Assembly (NCBI GenBank): GCA_903916735.1
Contig: CAIWXX010000094.1
Span: forward strand, 1 to 64,000
DNA length: 64,000 bases
DNA from: an uncultured Acidobacteriota bacterium
Lineage (GTDB): Bacteria > Acidobacteriota > CAIWXX01
Direction of reading: 5' to 3'
The notes beneath the pieces are model-generated. The model had not been told where the DNA came from. It was given only the letters and a program-made list of their open reading frames with translations, and did not search any database. A program made the translations under genes and the position numbers. This document shows, in pieces, positions 26,961-64,000 of this stretch (its first letter is position 1; every line of letters starts with the position of its first letter).

Positions 26961-27176
26961 TAGTATCTGATCGGTGAAATCTGTGCACAAAATGGCGGAA
27001 GTTGTGATCAGGCAGAATCGTGAATTCCTCTCAGGAAGCCAGGAAGAAAGGAATGGTTTATGAAACCACCGCTGGTCGAAATAAAAATCCGTTCCTGCTT
27101 TCATTTCTTGCTGCATTCCTGAGAGGTTCAGGTGCGATGGTTGTCGAAGCCATCTTGTTTGGTTGCGGCAATGCCG
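26961..27176. repeat. Dispersed palindromic repeat, copy A
   Basis: 216 bases that match 60953-61176 nearly along their whole length. Outer marker: ATCTGATCGGTG at the left; CATCTTGTTTGGTTGCGGC at the right. Inside are perfect inverted arms CCTCTCAGGAA (27027-27037) and TTCCTGAGAGG (27116-27126). It lies in the gap 26907-27452 between the M16 operon and the dnaJ-like gene, which has no convincing gene. A weak open frame across it is not protein-like. Confidence 0.85.
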
Positions 27177-40627: not shown

Positions 40628-40770
40628 ACCCCGCTCGGGGCCTTGGCATACGCAGGAATTGAAGCAGCAAAACACTTGCACCAAGGCCGGCTTCACCTGC
40701 TCGGTCGAGCTAAGATTTAAGAATTAGTGTCTAAACGGCGAAATGTCGACACGAAATGGCAAGATTCCAT

Positions 40771-40885
40771 CCGAACCTCTTAGGAATGCAGGAAGTAAGG
40801 AAACCAGGTACGAACCGGCCATTGCCGGCACACTACTACCTTCCGTTCCCGCATTCCTACCTTCCAGGCTTCCTGAGAGGTCCGG
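40771..40885. repeat. Dispersed palindromic repeat, copy C (short, inverted)
   Basis: Arms CCTCTTAGGAA (40776-40786) and TTCCTGAGAGG (40870-40880) repeat those of copies A and B with one mismatch. The left flank CGAACCTCTTAGGAATGCAG resembles the reverse complement of the right arm of copy B. It lies in the 555-base gap 40628-41182 between purN and tyrS; the rest of that gap shows nothing. Confidence 0.65.
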
Positions 40886-54423: not shown

Positions 54424-55740
54424 ATGCCCGAGAAGATTAAAGTCCTGATCATGGGAGCCGCTGGACGCGACTTCCACAATTTCAACTGCTGTTTCCGGGA
54501 TAATCCGGCTTATGACGTCGTGGCATTCACAGCCACTCAGATCCCTGATATTGAAGGGCGAAAGTACCCGGCGGCCCTCGCCGGCAAGCTCTACCCAAAG
54601 GGTATCCCGATCTATGCCGAATCCGACGTGGTTGATCTTATCCATAAGCACTCTGTTGATCAGGTCATCTTTGCCTATTCAGATGTTCCACATCCATACG
54701 TGATGCATAAGGCTTCTATGGTCATGGCGGCCGGCGCCGATTTCCGGCTGATGGGACCCGATGCGACTATGGTGAAATCGTGTGTGCCGGTCGTTTCGAT
54801 CTGTGCCGTGCGAACGGGCTGCGGAAAAAGCCAGACAACGCGCCGCGTGGCTGAGATCCTGCAAACCAAGGGAAAGAAACTGGTGATCGTCCGCCATCCG
54901 ATGCCATATGGCGATCTCGTGAAACAGCGTGTTCAGCGATTTGCGACACTGGCGGATCTGAAAAAACATCAGTGCACGATCGAGGAGATCGAGGAATACG
55001 AGCCGCACATTGTTCGTGGCTCGATCGTCTACGCCGGCGTTGATTATGAAGCCATTCTGCGGGACGCCGAAAAGGAAGCCGATGTCGTGCTCTGGGATGG
55101 CGGCAATAACGATTTCTCGTTCTACAAGGCGGATATCGAAATTGTCGTCGTCGATCCACATCGTGCCGGCCATGAGATGGCATATCATCCGGGCGAGATA
55201 AACCTGCGCCGCGCACACGTGCTTGTCATCAACAAAATCGAAACGGCCAAGCCGGCTGATGTCGAGCTTGTTCGGCAGAATATCCGCGATGTGAATCCTC
55301 GCGCCATGGTCATCGATGCGGCTTCGCCGGTGAGCGTTGAAAACTCCGAAAAAATCCGCGGCAAACGAGTCCTCGTCATCGAAGACGGCCCGACGCTGAC
55401 GCACGGCGAAATGCAGTACGGTGCAGGAGTTGTTGCCGCTCAGAAATTCGGTGCGAAGGAACTCGTCGATCCGCGTCCCTACACCATCGGGACAATCACA
55501 GAAACCTTCAAAAAATATCCGAAGATCGGCACGCTGCTTCCGGCCATGGGCTATGGCGAAAAGCAGGTGAAGGATCTGCAGGCGACGATCAACAAGACAC
55601 CGTGCGATCTCGTGCTGATCGCGACTCCGATCGATTTACGGCGGATTGTCAAGATTCAGAAACCGGCGCTCCGCGTCGGTTACGATCTGCAGGAAATCGG
55701 CCGCCCGACGCTCGAAGATGCTCTCGCGCAGCTGTCATAG
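54424..55740 (+). CDS. Cyclic 2,3-diphosphoglycerate synthetase-like P-loop protein
   Basis: 438 residues. Resembles the archaeal cyclic 2,3-diphosphoglycerate synthetase family, whose bacterial members are often called GTPases. N-terminal Rossmann-like half: KVLIMGAAGRDFHNFNCCFRDNP, then VDQVIFAYSDVPH. A P-loop at RTGCGKSQTTR starts the second half, followed by DVVLWDGGNNDFSFY (Walker-B-like) and NKIETA. Bacteria are not known to depend on cDPG, so the true substrate is open. It leads a cluster with carbamate kinase and ornithine carbamoyltransferase, which hints at carbamoyl-phosphate or amino-acid metabolism. Confidence 0.83.
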   Translation: MPEKIKVLIMGAAGRDFHNFNCCFRDNPAYDVVAFTATQIPDIEGRKYPAALAGKLYPKGIPIYAESDVVDLIHKHSVDQVIFAYSDVPHPYVMHKASMVMAAGADFRLMGPDATMVKSCVPVVSICAVRTGCGKSQTTRRVAEILQTKGKKLVIVRHPMPYGDLVKQRVQRFATLADLKKHQCTIEEIEEYEPHIVRGSIVYAGVDYEAILRDAEKEADVVLWDGGNNDFSFYKADIEIVVVDPHRAGHEMAYHPGEINLRRAHVLVINKIETAKPADVELVRQNIRDVNPRAMVIDAASPVSVENSEKIRGKRVLVIEDGPTLTHGEMQYGAGVVAAQKFGAKELVDPRPYTIGTITETFKKYPKIGTLLPAMGYGEKQVKDLQATINKTPCDLVLIATPIDLRRIVKIQKPALRVGYDLQEIGRPTLEDALAQLS

Positions 55741-57926: not shown

Positions 57927-59132
57927 ATGAAAAGATTTCTCTTTGCATTGTTGTTTTCGGTAGCGGCTTCCGGTCTTCTGGCGGCGGCGGATCCCTATCC
58001 TGATCTCGTGCAGATTTTGCCGATGACGGCGAGGGCTGGCCAGACGATCCCAAATTTCAAAGTCATCGGCACTCATTTTGATAACTTCCAGAAGATCGAG
58101 TTCCGGAAGGGGACCGGTGTCGACAAGCTCATCAAAATGACGAAAATCATCAAAAAAGATCCCAGCTACGTTATTGTCGAAATGGAGATCCCGGCCGGGA
58201 TCACCGGCAAGCGAGCTGTGGTTGTGCTGACAAACGCCGGCACGTCAGTGATCACTTTCACACCCGAGAACACGTTTGAGGTTCTCCCATACTCCAAAAA
58301 GAAACCCGATCTCAAGATCAGCAAAATCGCCTGGGGAACGACATCGGACTCAAATGGCAACCTTGCTCGTGTCTCTGTTCAGAATGCCGGCGGCACGCCC
58401 GTAAGAAATTTCAAAGTGGACCTTTATCTGGATGGGACGAAGAAGTTGAGATACACCTATGCGCCGATCCTTCCCGCCGGATCGACGATGGTGATCGAAC
58501 CGCCGGGCTTCCGGATTCCCAACCTCAAAGGTGGGTATACAGTCAGAGCGACCGTGGACCCTGAAAATAAAATTGAGGAAGAATCCGAAAAGAACAACTC
58601 ATTGGCCGTTCCCTTTGCTCAGGCCGCGGATGAGTTTGTGATTCCGGCGGGCGGTTATGCGACTTACGCTCTCACCAAGCTTAAAACGGCGCCAAATTTC
58701 ACTTTAAAAGATTATCGGACAAAGCCCTATACGCTCTATGATTATCGTGGCAAACCGATTTTTGTCGTCTTGGGATCTATGTGGTCGGCGTACAACCAGG
58801 CTGAAACGGCTGCGTTGAACAAGATCCTCACCGATTATCAATCCAAGGGGCTTACAATCATCCAGGTTCTTTACGACGACTTGAACTCCGATGACAACAT
58901 CCTCAAAGCTCCCACGCCGGATCTTCTGAAACTTTGGGTGGATGCCAACAGTTTGAAATTTCCCGTGCTTGCAGATATCGCCGACACTGATCTTGCTCAC
59001 AGCGCGTTCGCCAGGTACCAATCACAATATCAGCCCATGAATTACATCATCAATTCCGATGGGACTGTTCAGGCGCTCCTGGAGGGCTTCTATGAAGCGG
59101 ATGTTCGGACTGCTCTGAACAATTGCAAGTAA
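57927..59132 (+). CDS. Exported TIG - CARDB - thioredoxin-fold protein lacking redox Cys (copy 1)
   Basis: 401 residues from MKRFLFALLF (57927; GGAGGGAGG upstream). Signal peptide about 1-22. Residues about 25-130 form a TIG/IPT-like Ig fold (LPMTARAGQTIPNFKVIGTHF). Residues 135-235 are a CARDB domain (PDLKISKIAWG, then VSVQNAGGTPVRNFKVDLYLDG and EESEKNNSLAVPF). Residues about 255-401 are redoxin-like (APNFTLKDYRTKPYTLYDYRGKPIFVVLG), but the WCxxC site reads W286-S-A-Y-N, so it cannot do disulfide chemistry. Probably a periplasmic or surface binding protein. A close paralogue of equal length is at 61436. Confidence 0.87.
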   Translation: MKRFLFALLFSVAASGLLAAADPYPDLVQILPMTARAGQTIPNFKVIGTHFDNFQKIEFRKGTGVDKLIKMTKIIKKDPSYVIVEMEIPAGITGKRAVVVLTNAGTSVITFTPENTFEVLPYSKKKPDLKISKIAWGTTSDSNGNLARVSVQNAGGTPVRNFKVDLYLDGTKKLRYTYAPILPAGSTMVIEPPGFRIPNLKGGYTVRATVDPENKIEEESEKNNSLAVPFAQAADEFVIPAGGYATYALTKLKTAPNFTLKDYRTKPYTLYDYRGKPIFVVLGSMWSAYNQAETAALNKILTDYQSKGLTIIQVLYDDLNSDDNILKAPTPDLLKLWVDANSLKFPVLADIADTDLAHSAFARYQSQYQPMNYIINSDGTVQALLEGFYEADVRTALNNCK

Positions 59133-59215
59133 AGGGCCTTGGGAAGTAAACCAGCCAACCGGGTCCGGCGGCTATTTGAAAAAGCTGGGGACAGGAACCA
59201 ATTTTGAAAGCGTCT

Positions 59216-59244
59216 GACTTCGAGATCAAGAGCGACTCGAAGTC
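59216..59244 (+). terminator. Hairpin with short T run downstream of the CARDB protein gene
   Basis: GACTTCGAG (59216-59224) and CTCGAAGTC (59236-59244) form a perfect 9-bp stem with an 11-base loop, followed by TTT. It stands 84 bases after the stop, before the next gene. Confidence 0.4.
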
Positions 59245-59296
59245 TTTCGCTCGTTCAAACGGATGCGCGCCGCCTTAGAGGAAAAAAGGCGGCACA

Positions 59297-60829
59297 GTGA
59301 GACGGCGGGAGTTCCTGGCGGCTGCTACCGCCGGGCTTCTGTCATGCTGCCGCCGGACTCGGCGGGGGAGCAGCAGCAGCAGCGGCGGCGGCGGAATTGT
59401 TGAGGTATATCGAAGCGCGCCCGAATCATTCGATCCGACCATTGCATTCTCCGATGTCGCCTACGAACTCTTCGGCCGCATTTACAGCGGGCTGCTTCGA
59501 TATGACGGAGAAGGCCGGCTGGTTGCCGACCTGGCTCTCAATTATGAATCGAGCTCCGATGCGATTCGTCTGATCCTCCGCGAGACCGCAAAGTGGCATG
59601 ACGGCAGGCCTGTCATCGCCGCCGATATCATCGAGACGATGCGTCGGTATTCATCGAAGGACTATCCTTTCTCGGCCCCGTTTGCCTCGATCGGCAAGGT
59701 TGATGTCGCCCGATGGCCGGAGGTCGTTCTCCGTCTGAATCGCCCATCCTTCGCCCTACTGCATGCTCTGACAGCGCGCGTGCTGCCTTCGCATATATCG
59801 GATCTCGGGGCTTCACCAATTGGGTGCGGGTTCTACAAGGTACAGGATCGGTTCACTGAAAGCCTGACGTTGCGTTCACATCCGTCCTACTATGGGCAGC
59901 CCGCGATGATTGATCGTGTGGAGTGTCGCACCGTACCGGATCCCATGAGCCAATATCTGCAGCTTCTCTCGGGAGATGCCGATCTTGCGGAACTCTCGGC
60001 GGATTTCCAGCGAGCCGCTCTTCGTGATCCGAAAATTGTCGACCACATTCGTGTTTTTTCGGTTCCTTCCAAGGCGATCGAGTTCCTTTTCTTCAATGTT
60101 CGCCGGATCGCCGACCCGGCGCTTCGCCAGGCGATCGCACAGAGTATTAACCGTGATGACATCCTACGGTATCTGTATTGGGGGAACGGGCGCGTCGTTT
60201 CCAGCCCTTTTCTGGAAGCGGAATGGAATGATCCGGAAGTCACCGGACCCGCTTACGACCCGCGAATGGCGGCGTCTTTGCTCGATTCCGCCGGCTACGA
60301 TCGGCGGGGTGGAACACTCAGTCGTGCCGGTTCTCGGATCCGTCTGACGATCCTCTTTAATGCCGATAGCACGAAGCGAGGGCAGATCGCTCAGGTCATT
60401 GCTCAAAGCCTGACTGAAAAACTCGGCATCGATGCTCGTGTGCAAGGGATGGAACGCGGGCTGTTTGAGAGACTCTTCTTCCGTGGAGATTATGAATGTG
60501 CCGTCTACGGTTTTTCATTTGCGGCCGACCCGGATGATGTCGGCAATCTGTTTCGTTCTGATAGCGAGTACAACGTGAGTGGCTATGCCGATAAAGATGT
60601 TGATGATCTGTTTGCTCGCGGCCGCGATCTGCAGAAGGGCGAGGAGAAGCGGGAGTGTTACCGTCTGATTCAGCGAATTCTCGCAAAAGACCTGCCGTCG
60701 GTCCCGCTTCTCAGCTACAACATCCCGATCGGAGTCTCCCGTCGAATCGACGTCCGGGCGCCATCGATCATCGGTGACACATACCGGTTTACGCGCGAAG
60801 AGAATCTCTGGCGGCTAGTTTCCGGGTAA
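59297..60829 (+). CDS. Family 5 (peptide/opine type) substrate-binding lipoprotein
   Basis: 510 residues, GTG start with AAAGGCGG upstream. The N-terminus combines RRREF with a lipobox LLSC (Cys about 16-17), suggesting a lipidated, perhaps Tat-exported protein. A Ser5-Gly4 linker is encoded by (AGC)5 followed by GGC/GGA codons (59369-59395), a slippage-prone tract. Extracellular solute-binding domain: GRIYSGLLRYDGEGRLVADLALNYE, WHDGRPVIAADIIETMRRY and FFNVRRIADPALRQAIAQSINRDDIL. These bind peptides, nickel or other solutes for an ABC importer; no permease or ATPase genes accompany it. Confidence 0.92.
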   Translation: MRRREFLAAATAGLLSCCRRTRRGSSSSSGGGGIVEVYRSAPESFDPTIAFSDVAYELFGRIYSGLLRYDGEGRLVADLALNYESSSDAIRLILRETAKWHDGRPVIAADIIETMRRYSSKDYPFSAPFASIGKVDVARWPEVVLRLNRPSFALLHALTARVLPSHISDLGASPIGCGFYKVQDRFTESLTLRSHPSYYGQPAMIDRVECRTVPDPMSQYLQLLSGDADLAELSADFQRAALRDPKIVDHIRVFSVPSKAIEFLFFNVRRIADPALRQAIAQSINRDDILRYLYWGNGRVVSSPFLEAEWNDPEVTGPAYDPRMAASLLDSAGYDRRGGTLSRAGSRIRLTILFNADSTKRGQIAQVIAQSLTEKLGIDARVQGMERGLFERLFFRGDYECAVYGFSFAADPDDVGNLFRSDSEYNVSGYADKDVDDLFARGRDLQKGEEKRECYRLIQRILAKDLPSVPLLSYNIPIGVSRRIDVRAPSIIGDTYRFTREENLWRLVSG

Positions 60830-60952
60830 AGCACATCTCGGTCACGTCGCTTTCGTCGCTACGGTGCTCACGTATAAGGTCGTGCGCTCTTCACACCTGC
60901 GCCCTTTTCGCGGGCCTTGGGCGCTCAATCTGTTGTGACGGCATCGCGGGCG

Positions 60953-61176
60953 TAGCATCTGATCGGTGGAATCTATGCGCAAAATGGAAAAAGTTGTGAT
61001 AGGGCAGGATCGGGAATTCCTCTCAGGAAGCCAGAAAGAAAGGAATGCAGGAATGACTCATGAACCCACCGCTGGTTGAAATAATAATCCGTTCCTGCTT
61101 TCTTCTCTTCCTGCATTCCTGAGAGGTTCGGGTGCGATGGTTGTCGAAGTCATCTTGTTTGGTTGCGGCTATGCCA
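60953..61176. repeat. Dispersed palindromic repeat, copy B
   Basis: 224 bases matching copy A (26961-27176) in the same orientation, with arms CCTCTCAGGAA (61019-61029) and TTCCTGAGAGG (61116-61126). The gap 60830-61435 also has GCGCCC/GGGCGC pairing near 60898-60923 and a GACGACGTCGTC palindrome (61393-61404) just before the next gene, but no gene. Confidence 0.85.
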
Positions 61177-61435
61177 CATGAGAAAGAAGCGTGAACACCA
61201 TAATTCCAGAGTTAGAATTTGTTATCGGTTGTAAGAAAAAACGCTCTCGACTCGTCGTCTGCTAAGTTTATCCTCTTTGATTTGTGTGACTTAAGAGCCT
61301 CTCCAGTTCGACATCCCAAAAACATATATGGCACGAAATCTGCATTTCCTTTTTCTGCGCTATGGAACGAGGAAAGTTGACTCCATCCCTTAGACGACGT
61401 CGTCAAGGGTGTTCGTTCGAAAAAGAGGTGTGGTA

Positions 61436-62641
61436 ATGAGAAAGGTGCTTTGCGCCCCGGTCATTCTGGTTGCACTCTCCTGCATTTTAATGGCAGCCGA
61501 TTCTTATCCGGATCTCCTGCAAATTCTGCCGGTGACGGCAAGGGCGGGCCAGACGATCCCCAATTTCAAGGTCATTGGCACTCATTTTGAGAACTTCCAA
61601 AAAATCGAATTTCGAAAGGGCACCGGCGTCGACAAGCTCATCAAGATGACGAAAATTGTCAAGAAAGATCCCAACTACGTTGTCGTTCAAGTGGAGATCC
61701 CAAGCGGCGTTACAGGCAAACGGGCTGTGGTTGTGCTGACGAGTGCTGGAACGACCGTCATCACTTTCACTCCCGAGAATACGTTTGAAATTCTCCCGCA
61801 TTCCGAAAAGAAGCCCGATCTCAAAATCCGCCAGATCACTTGGGGGACGACTTCGGATTCGAGCGGCAACCTGGCTCGAGTCTCCGTTCAAAATGCCGGC
61901 GGCACTCCCGTCAGAAATTTTAAAATTGACATTTATCTGGATGGGAAGAAAAAGTTGAGATACACCTATGCGCCGATCCTTCCCGCCGGATCAACGATGG
62001 TGATTGAACCACCCGGCTTCCGGATTCCTAATACCAAGGGCTGGTACACGGTCAAAGCGATCGCAGATCCAGAGAACAAAATTGAAGAGGAATCCGAGGA
62101 AAACAATTCTTTGGCCGTGCCTTTTGATCAGCCCGCCGATGAATTCATCATCCCGTCCGGTGAACATGCGACATATGCTCTCACCAAGCTTAAGACGGCT
62201 CCCAATTTCATACTGAAAGACTACCGGTCAAGGCCTTACACCTTCTACGACTATCGTGGCAAACCGGCTCTTCTGGTTTTAGGTGCCATGTGGTCGACAT
62301 ACATGCAGGTCGAAACTGCCGCTTTGAACCAGTTACTCACCGATTATCAATCCAAGGGGTTGCAGATCTTCCAGGTGCTCTATGACGATCTCGACAGCAG
62401 CGATACCACACTCAAGAGTCCCACGCCGGAGCTTCTGAAGGTCTGGGTGGATTCCAACAACCTGGCATTCCCGGTCCTGGCCGATACAGCCGACACCGAC
62501 TTCGCTCACAGCGCCTATTCAAGGTACCAGTCCGAATATCAGCCAATGAATTACATCATCAATTCTGATGGGACGGTCCAGGCCCTGTTGCAAGGCTTCA
62601 ACAGCACGGATCTCAATACTGCCTTGGATAACGCGAAATAA
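61436..62641 (+). CDS. Exported TIG - CARDB - thioredoxin-fold protein lacking redox Cys (copy 2)
   Basis: 401 residues from MRKVLCAPV (61436; AAGAGG upstream), the same length as copy 1 and identical at most positions. Signal peptide about 1-22, TIG-like domain, CARDB domain (KPDLKIRQITWG, then VSVQNAGGTPVRNFKIDIYLDG), and a C-terminal redoxin-like domain where WCxxC is W286-S-T-Y-M. Both copies keep the APNF entry, DYRGKP and the PMNYIINSDGTVQALL ending, so the fold is preserved while the active site is gone. The pair flanks the substrate-binding lipoprotein, a likely tandem duplication with insertion or a functional group. Confidence 0.87.
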   Translation: MRKVLCAPVILVALSCILMAADSYPDLLQILPVTARAGQTIPNFKVIGTHFENFQKIEFRKGTGVDKLIKMTKIVKKDPNYVVVQVEIPSGVTGKRAVVVLTSAGTTVITFTPENTFEILPHSEKKPDLKIRQITWGTTSDSSGNLARVSVQNAGGTPVRNFKIDIYLDGKKKLRYTYAPILPAGSTMVIEPPGFRIPNTKGWYTVKAIADPENKIEEESEENNSLAVPFDQPADEFIIPSGEHATYALTKLKTAPNFILKDYRSRPYTFYDYRGKPALLVLGAMWSTYMQVETAALNQLLTDYQSKGLQIFQVLYDDLDSSDTTLKSPTPELLKVWVDSNNLAFPVLADTADTDFAHSAYSRYQSEYQPMNYIINSDGTVQALLQGFNSTDLNTALDNAK

Positions 62642-62786
62642 GCGACAACACCAAACCAGCAGATGAGAACGAGTGTGAGCATTTGAATCGGCGATGACAT
62701 TCCGAATTCGGATAGCGGCGTCTGACGGCGCCGGATAAATCCAGCAGCCTCTTTCATTTCGCGGCGTCTTGAGAGAAAATCCAGGC

Positions 62787-64000
62787 ATGGGCAAATGGAT
62801 GAGTTTTCTCTTTTTCCTGCAGTTTGTTGCCGCAGCTTCTCTTTGCAGCGGCCAGGATGGGTTTTCATTTACGAGAATCGGTCATTTTGGAGGCGCAGCG
62901 ACTGCCGTTGATGTTCAGCCGCCATATTTCTATTACAACCAGGGTGCGGATCTGATCGTTTACGATTTGAGTGCGCGCCTGGAACTCGTGCGTTTTCCGC
63001 TACCCGATGCCATCCGGAAAATGATCGTCACATCGGACCGGATTTATGCTGCATGCGGCAACAGTGGACTCGTGGTGGTCGACATCGCTCAGAAGAATGC
63101 ACCCAGCGTCATATCCACGTGGCGGCCGGGAGGCTTGGTTGATGGACTGCTGGTTTCCCTGCCTTATGTTTTCGTCGTTGCGGCGAACAATGCCGTTCAT
63201 CTGGTCGATCTGACGGTCCCGACTCAACCGCGCCTGATCCGGACGATTTTGCGTGATTACTACATCGAGAGCGCTGCGATGGACGAAAGCCATCTGTACA
63301 TCTCTGACGGCCTCAATGGAATCTTCATCTATGATCTCTCGTCAATCAACAGCCCACGCCTGGTAGCCAGTATCAGCAATATCCGGTTCAACGGCCGGCT
63401 CACAGCATCCGGCGGATATCTCTACGACTCGCTTCAGAATGGCGGGTTGATCATTTACGATGTAACAAACCCGGTTTCGCCCGTCGAGTTGTCAATGAAG
63501 ACCTTGCCGGGCCGCTCTTATGATCTCGATTTGGATGGAACGACTCTCTATATGTGCAATGGGAGTGGGGGGGTTCGTATCATTGATGTCGCCGATCCGC
63601 AGAATCCCGTAATTATCGGCCAGTACTCCAGCACGGCTCTCAGCGGGAAGCTTTCAGGCACGAAGTATTTTATTGCAGCCGGATTTTCCGGCACGATGGT
63701 TCTGGATGTCGCACGACCGCGCCAACCGGTCCTCACACTCCGATTCCGAACGCTTGGGGTTCCTCGTTCGATTTACATCAAAGGTTCCGAAGCCTTCATC
63801 GCCGACTTCTGGAACGGACTCACGGCACTCGATATCACGCGTCCCGATGAAATCCTCGTCTCCAGAGCATTGGATCTAACAGGGGATGTAACCCTGGGTG
63901 CCGCTGTCGGGCTGACTCATGTCTATGTGGCATGTGGGGTTGCCGGACTACGGATTATCGACATTCGACAGGCGCATCAATTGAAGCCGAGTGCTACAGA
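62787..64000 (+). CDS. LVIVD-repeat beta-propeller protein (truncated by window end)
   Basis: 404 codons up to the window edge with no stop. Signal peptide (MSFLFFLQFVAAASLCSGQ). Repeats of about 42 residues carry the LVIVD-type strand: GLVVVDIAQKNAPSVIS, AVHLVDLTVPTQPRLI, GIFIYDLSSINSPRLV, GLIIYDVTNPVSPVE, GVRIIDVADPQNPVII, TMVLDVARPRQPVL, GLTALDITRP and GLRIIDIRQ. Such proteins fold as beta-propellers on the cell surface or in the periplasm and probably mediate binding. The 145-base gap before it shows nothing. True length unknown. Confidence 0.88.
   Translation, partial: MGKWMSFLFFLQFVAAASLCSGQDGFSFTRIGHFGGAATAVDVQPPYFYYNQGADLIVYDLSARLELVRFPLPDAIRKMIVTSDRIYAACGNSGLVVVDIAQKNAPSVISTWRPGGLVDGLLVSLPYVFVVAANNAVHLVDLTVPTQPRLIRTILRDYYIESAAMDESHLYISDGLNGIFIYDLSSINSPRLVASISNIRFNGRLTASGGYLYDSLQNGGLIIYDVTNPVSPVELSMKTLPGRSYDLDLDGTTLYMCNGSGGVRIIDVADPQNPVIIGQYSSTALSGKLSGTKYFIAAGFSGTMVLDVARPRQPVLTLRFRTLGVPRSIYIKGSEAFIADFWNGLTALDITRPDEILVSRALDLTGDVTLGAAVGLTHVYVACGVAGLRIIDIRQAHQLKPSAT

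Follow-up and report, generated by a model that had tools for sequence, protein, structure and literature searches.

What is a thioredoxin fold kept for once both of its redox cysteines have gone? The question is raised by two genes in a 64,000-nucleotide stretch of DNA (the window; positions 1–64000 of the 73.9 kb contig CAIWXX010000094.1, C94) from the 5.37 Mb genome of an uncultured Acidobacteriota bacterium, which encode proteins with a thioredoxin-like C-terminal domain and stand on either side of the gene for a family 5 substrate-binding protein (SBP). A sequence-only reading had placed the pair at 57927–62641 and held that the redoxin-like domain carries WSAYN or WSTYM where WCxxC is expected; the locus is as it described (ATG at 57927, last stop ending at 62641, both frames 401 amino acids), and so is the domain, which matches AhpC-TSA (PF00578) at residues 253–383 in both proteins (58.0 and 56.7 bits, Pfam cut-off 26). 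We refer to the proteins as copy 1 (P0001) and copy 2 (P0002) and to their cysteine-free thioredoxin domain as the Trx domain. In our moderately confident reading, it is a non-catalytic binding or recognition module, a redox-dead thioredoxin kept beside an orphan SBP. The two copies share 316 of 401 residues (79%) in a gap-free alignment, and their parts are as follows.

57927..59132, + strand: copy 1, 401 residues from ATG at 57927; signal peptide, TIG-like domain, CARDB and cysteine-free ResA/TlpA-type thioredoxin fold
57927..57992, + strand: copy 1, putative signal peptide, residues 1–22 (by eye; helix 2–18 in the model)
57993..58292, + strand: copy 1, TIG/IPT-like beta-sandwich, residues 23–122 (predicted structure)
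58302..58610, + strand: copy 1, CARDB, residues 126–228 (PF07705 and structure match)
58671..59129, + strand: copy 1, cysteine-free thioredoxin fold, residues 249–401 (PF00578, AF2 model, ResA match)
58782..58796, + strand: copy 1, WSAYN replacing WCxxC, residues 286–290 (alignment)
59034..59036, + strand: copy 1, Pro370 (YQPMNY) at the thioredoxin cis-Pro place, kept in the three full-length homologues
61436..62641, + strand: copy 2, 401 residues, architecture as copy 1, stop ending at 62641
61502..61801, + strand: copy 2, TIG/IPT-like domain (alignment to copy 1; weak PF09099)
61811..62119, + strand: copy 2, CARDB (PF07705, 48.6 bits)
62180..62638, + strand: copy 2, cysteine-free thioredoxin fold (PF00578, 56.7 bits)
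62291..62305, + strand: copy 2, WSTYM replacing WCxxC (alignment)

A kept fold and two lost cysteines

A third full-length homologue, from the other genome of the same class that was compared (G001, JACPPM01), reads WSRYT at the place of WCxxC, and the three proteins (the trio) thus have Ser at the position of the first cysteine (C1) and Asn, Met or Thr at that of the second (C2). Mature copy 2 contains no cysteine at all, whilst copy 1 has only Cys400 and the G001 protein only Cys391. Because both cysteines have been replaced, dithiol chemistry is impossible at the former CxxC site, and mature copy 2, being cysteine-free, cannot by itself carry out cysteine chemistry of any kind.

Both copies are predicted to hold a thioredoxin fold, of the ResA/TlpA type. 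An AF2 model of copy 1 residues 242–401, for which the three full-length homologues were aligned with 27 CxxC-bearing relatives from viral contigs (30 sequences), reached a pLDDT of 86.3 and a pTM of 0.86, and its first Foldseek matches were ResA structures (E about 1e-11). Alignment to ResA 1st9 gave Z 20.8 and a root-mean-square deviation (rmsd) of 1.6 Å over 135 residues at 23% identity (VIA-align), alignment to TlpA 1jfu gave Z 16.4, and the closest structures shown were ResA/TlpA and peroxiredoxins. The trio's sequence profile likewise found ResA-type chains in the PDB (4nmu, E 7.9e-7), PF00578 scores 62 bits in the G001 homologue, and Pro370 is aligned and invariant in all 30 alignment rows, at the cis-Pro place by alignment. 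The possibility that there is no thioredoxin fold here is ruled out by PF00578, the AF2 model, Foldseek and the ResA match, and the likeness to AhpC/TlpA folds that the sequence-only reading expected was borne out.

Of the two modules which that reading saw in front, CARDB stands by both profile and fold and TIG by fold, although not as a Pfam profile. CARDB (PF07705) is matched at residues 126–227 in both copies (51.5 and 48.6 bits, cut-off 22.7), the second domain of the predicted structure resembles solved CARDB domains (2kl6, Z 8.8; 3idu, Z 8.7), and the profile of the trio found the CARDB chain 2kl6 in the PDB at E 1.1e-5. No TIG model in Pfam matched at E ≤ 1 in copy 1, copy 2 or the G001 homologue; the nearest model for the region, PF09099, stayed below its cut-off and appeared in copy 2 and the G001 homologue, not in copy 1. 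In the predicted structure residues 21–122 match the IPT regions of plexin (5l5g, Z 10.5, rmsd 1.9 Å, 87 residues) and a Met-receptor fragment (5lsp, Z 9.8), and the name is therefore correct as a fold. Across both N-terminal domains the top structural row was quinohemoprotein amine dehydrogenase (1jmx, Z 11.7, rmsd 6.5 Å, 159 residues). These comparisons used the full-length model for about residues 21–226 solely, as it was built from three sequences and has a mean pLDDT of 49.9 (55–84 in blocks over residues 21–210, 58–84 locally for the TIG-like domain, below 50 from residue 212 on). Judged by eye, both copies have signal-peptide-like starts and appear to be exported-type proteins.

Full-length homologues are rare. 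Among the matches listed (at most four candidates per genome were scored, ranked by E-value) they occur in two of 396 genomes of the phylum, the window's own and G001, which are the two genomes of the class that were compared. A scan of a contig collection with two short peptide patterns, which distant relatives could escape and where the window's own record may be omitted, returned one record, JACPPM01. The only homologue found with the same three-domain order is thus that of G001, and it too has lost both cysteines. The wider family is different: in a set of 50 rows made up of best-matching loci only (the three full-length homologues and 47 other Acidobacteriota relatives, three rows from genome G010 being pieces of one protein), 44 of the 47 carry both cysteines, whilst one has CxxA (L015), one aligns with R/T (L022, peroxiredoxin-like by eye) and one is incomplete (L019). 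In the window's own genome, the other AhpC-TSA proteins read WCGPC or WCRPC (L004, L005, L008), TPVC (L003) and WCPPC (the ninth); among the AhpC-TSA matches of this genome L001 and L002 contain TGA.

In a midpoint-rooted tree of 74 rows, the trio forms one of four unresolved branches in a group of 27 (support 99/98). The remaining 24 rows of that group, among them a WCRPC protein of G001, have CxxC throughout, in many cases within S-A-M-W-C-x-P-C. Admission to the tree required C..C or WS.Y.Q close to where the motif is expected (L015, L022 and L019 were omitted), and with rows chosen by motif the tree tells where the trio belongs but not how common each form is. Its simplest reading is one derived loss of the cysteines from a CxxC ancestor. 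As the G001 homologue belongs to another genus and also lacks both cysteines, the loss predates the split of the genera, and for the same reason a separate loss in each copy is ruled out.

Relatives were also sought on the viral contigs of IMG/VR with the WCxPC pattern among others, which favours cysteine-bearing rows; no full-length TIG-CARDB-Trx relative was found there. The scan gave 136 TlpA-like places, of which 80 were kept (L072–L151); 28 of the 80 were aligned, being 15–25% identical to the Trx domain, and 27 of these entered the AF2 alignment and the tree. Sixteen viral SAMWCxPC proteins share the 27-row group of the tree with the Acidobacteriota proteins.

Comparison of the copies shows purifying selection on the Trx domain. 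By the Nei-Gojobori method, dN/dS between copies 1 and 2 is 0.10 for the whole gene, 0.08 for TIG, 0.07 for CARDB and 0.10 (0.097) for Trx; against G001, where computable, it is 0.12 for the whole gene, 0.21 for TIG and 0.16 for CARDB (both copy 1) and 0.20 for Trx (copy 2). A decaying pseudogene domain is ruled out by the full-length frames and the dN/dS of about 0.1 between the copies. Across genera the Trx domain is conserved on a par with its neighbours (identity of copy 1/copy 2 to G001: Trx 62%/57%, TIG 63%/64%, CARDB 56%/60%), and it is in the signal peptide that the copies differ most (45% identity). Within the domain, 24 of 33 positions in the segments 282–298 and 366–381, which hold the active-site and cis-Pro loops, are invariant in the three homologues, vs. 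56 of the other 120 (Fisher one-sided p 0.006). Ser287, Tyr289, Gln291, Glu293 and Gln369-Pro370-Met371-Asn372 are invariant whilst positions 288, 290 and 292 vary, and the groove loops seem to have outlasted the chemistry.

The claim that two diverged copies show a fold kept without disulfide chemistry thus survives in its substance, given the cysteine-free copy 2, the low dN/dS, the cysteine-less G001 site and the ResA-like model. Two points weaken it. The copies share one loss and one duplication and so are not independent witnesses, a part that falls to the G001 protein. The sequence-only reading had also named retention of CxxC by most homologues as grounds for giving up its claim, which applies to the wider family (44 of 47 rows) but to none of the three full-length homologues.

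The neighbourhood and the duplicated gene

Two neighbouring genes of the window recur beside the Trx gene in G001.

59297..60829, + strand: family 5 substrate-binding lipoprotein, GTG start (Pfam SBP_bac_5; RRxFL and lipobox by eye)
62769..64000, + strand: LVIVD-repeat beta-propeller protein, start at TTG 62769 or ATG 62787 (by eye), continuing to contig position 64598

G001 has a single homologue, 59% identical to copy 1, with the same domain and gene order: a 439-residue gene resembling window 54424–55740, carbamate kinase and ornithine-type carbamoyltransferase (these first three matched and named by eye), then the Trx gene, the SBP_5 lipoprotein and the LVIVD propeller. The window keeps this order and has a second Trx gene between SBP and propeller. 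From the carbamoyltransferase on, the gaps are 27, 13 and 80 bp in G001 and 128, 164 and 606 bp in the window, followed there by 145 bp to ATG 62787. Identity across the genera is 59% for copy 1, 56% for the SBP and 45% for the propeller. The copies are 79% identical to each other vs. 57–59% to the G001 homologue, which places the duplication on the window's side and rules out an ancient divergence of the two; at the DNA level blastn similarity between them is limited to about 57983–59090 of copy 1, within the coding part. That the copies flank the SBP, as had been noted from the sequence, is true of the window but not of G001, where one Trx gene lies beside it, and the flanking arose from the later duplication.

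The gene between the copies matches SBP_bac_5 at 182 bits and is one of eight SBP_5 matches in the genome. By eye, its product starts with an RRxFL twin-arginine-like motif and a lipobox ending at C17/C18. None of the 16 permease (PF00528) matches of the genome lies on its 73.9 kb contig; partners elsewhere are possible, and ATPases were not searched. The protein encoded at 59297–60829, conserved beside the Trx gene in both genera, is in this sense an orphan SBP.

An interspersed repeat of ~220 bp lies between the SBP gene and copy 2 (about 60950–61182), with a second copy at 26961–27175. It holds a long imperfect palindrome with 35-nucleotide arms (61019–61053 and 61092–61126, 83% complementary), and scoring 40 of 149 candidates located at least 39 further places at 83–92% identity in the genome. 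Repeats of the palindromic core, of about 115 bp (69–76%, with shorter pieces reaching 90%), occur in G001 as well: scoring 40 of 373 candidates there gave 83 match rows over both strands, and at least ten of these lie no more than 200 bases from the start of a contig. Rfam has no family at gathering score for the repeat, which looks like a REP/MITE-type element common to the two genera. Short matches to the palindrome core at 40768–40885 (35–45 bp, 80–86%, both strands) may represent a third copy, either diverged or truncated.

What the domain may be kept for

The course of events that we propose would start from an active extracytoplasmic domain of the TlpA/ResA type and the SAMWCxPC kind, whose redox cysteines would both have gone by the time the class divided into its two known genera. 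The domain may then have been retained since its former substrate groove, formed by the loop around Trp286-Ser287-x-Tyr289 and the loop of Pro370 (cis-Pro), still binds a protein or ligand. Two Ig-like domains would hold it out in the periplasm, TIG and CARDB acting as spacers or as further binding surfaces, and it may work with the neighbouring SBP lipoprotein and LVIVD propeller, e.g., as an adaptor or docking protein. A later duplication in the window's genome gave the second copy, which lies between SBP and propeller. Groove binding, the partnership with the SBP and the adaptor role are inferred.

Several observations weigh against this proposal. The dS is 1.26 overall between the copies and often saturated against G001, where dN/dS, as far as it was computable, is higher. 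The groove segments were picked post hoc, and 16-residue windows starting at 249–253 and 271–272 are equally dense in invariant positions. Conservation is thinly sampled, as the full-length sequences found are three from two genomes. With gaps as wide as those of the window, co-transcription there is unproved. Finally, between the copies the Trx domain is the least conserved (75% identity vs. 85% for TIG and 87% for CARDB).

This last point, together with the freedom of the C2 position (Asn, Met, Thr), favours an explanation in which the Trx domain is a structural remnant or spacer, its fold kept for stability and packing whilst the function would rest with TIG, CARDB or other surfaces. We regard it as unlikely, since across genera the domain is about as conserved as TIG and CARDB, and its groove loops belong to the stretches that it has preserved best.

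Alternatively, the serine that replaces C1, two residues before an invariant Tyr, may bind or activate the thiol of a small ligand, as kappa-class glutathione transferases (GSTs) may do. The alternation of invariant positions 287, 289, 291 and 293 with variable ones would fit such new chemistry, but the nearest structures shown are ResA/TlpA and peroxiredoxins, not GSTs, three sequences cannot separate a required serine from an inherited one, and thiol ligands in this compartment are unproved; we consider it quite unlikely. A broader variant is a long shot: a class-specific periplasmic sensor or carrier in which the orphan twin-arginine-type SBP, the propeller and the Trx domain, with a new WSxYxQxE ligand or thiol site, act together, doubled in one genus so that the Asn and Met variants would recognise different ligands. 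Thiol chemistry persisting through another cysteine or in a mixed complex is hardly credible, although copy 1 and the G001 protein each hold one Cys near the C-terminus, as Cys400 and Cys391 lie away from the CxxC place and such chemistry is excluded for copy 2 alone. A binding or recognition module thus remains the reading that we prefer.

Relation to known thioredoxin-fold proteins

With the ResA/TlpA/CcmG-type thioredoxins (PF00578; 1st9, 2f9s, 1jfu) the Trx domain has in common the fold, the exported type, the Trp, Pro370 at the cis-Pro place and a Glu six residues after C1, which we take to be the equivalent of ResA Glu80; a ResA E80Q structure is among the structural matches to the model. 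It differs in lacking both catalytic cysteines and in sitting behind TIG and CARDB. The NCBIfam ResA model scores 40.5–44 bits vs. a cut-off of 170, and because the defining CxxC is absent despite the fold, we leave it out of the thiol-disulfide oxidoreductases; its appearance is that of a ResA/TlpA-like pseudo-oxidoreductase.

Calsequestrin, ERp29 and phosducin are not known to carry a CxxC motif. All three are named as thioredoxin-fold members in PMC2757866, according to which 22% of sequences in the paper's Fig. 8 are without a cysteine-containing motif, 69% of those being GSTs, and the serine at the first position of GST kappa appears critical. A cysteine-free thioredoxin fold is thus a known phenomenon, established in that paper. 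The Trx domain shares with these proteins a fold without the archetypal cysteine pair. As for kappa-class GSTs, marked by a DsbA-like fold and a serine at the first active-site place, the Trx domain has Ser at the C1 place, and no GST fold was among the 50 Foldseek rows or the structural alignments of the model that were shown. Unlike the known cases it is an exported bacterial domain of the TlpA type, preceded by TIG and CARDB. Neither the TIG-CARDB-Trx architecture nor this gene cluster was found described in the titles and abstract openings listed for open papers; what seems new is this combination and its gene neighbourhood. The system is useful for asking what a fold is selected for after catalysis, because it combines a loss of known placement, available relatives with CxxC and a duplicated pair on which selection acts.

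The nearest comparisons of architecture come from the same 27-row group of the tree. A 297-residue TlpA-type protein of the same class (G001:C229, WCRPC) also has an N-terminal extension, beta-sandwich-like by eye, before its thioredoxin fold, but keeps CxxC, has no CARDB match and is encoded elsewhere in the genome. Similarly, fusions in other Acidobacteriota (L042, L052 and L059, from genomes of three families) carry a C-terminal thioredoxin fold on a larger protein, but keep CxxC and have an N-terminal glucose/sorbosone dehydrogenase (GSDH) domain, PF07995 lying in the same open frame as the C-terminal CxxC TlpA-type domain.

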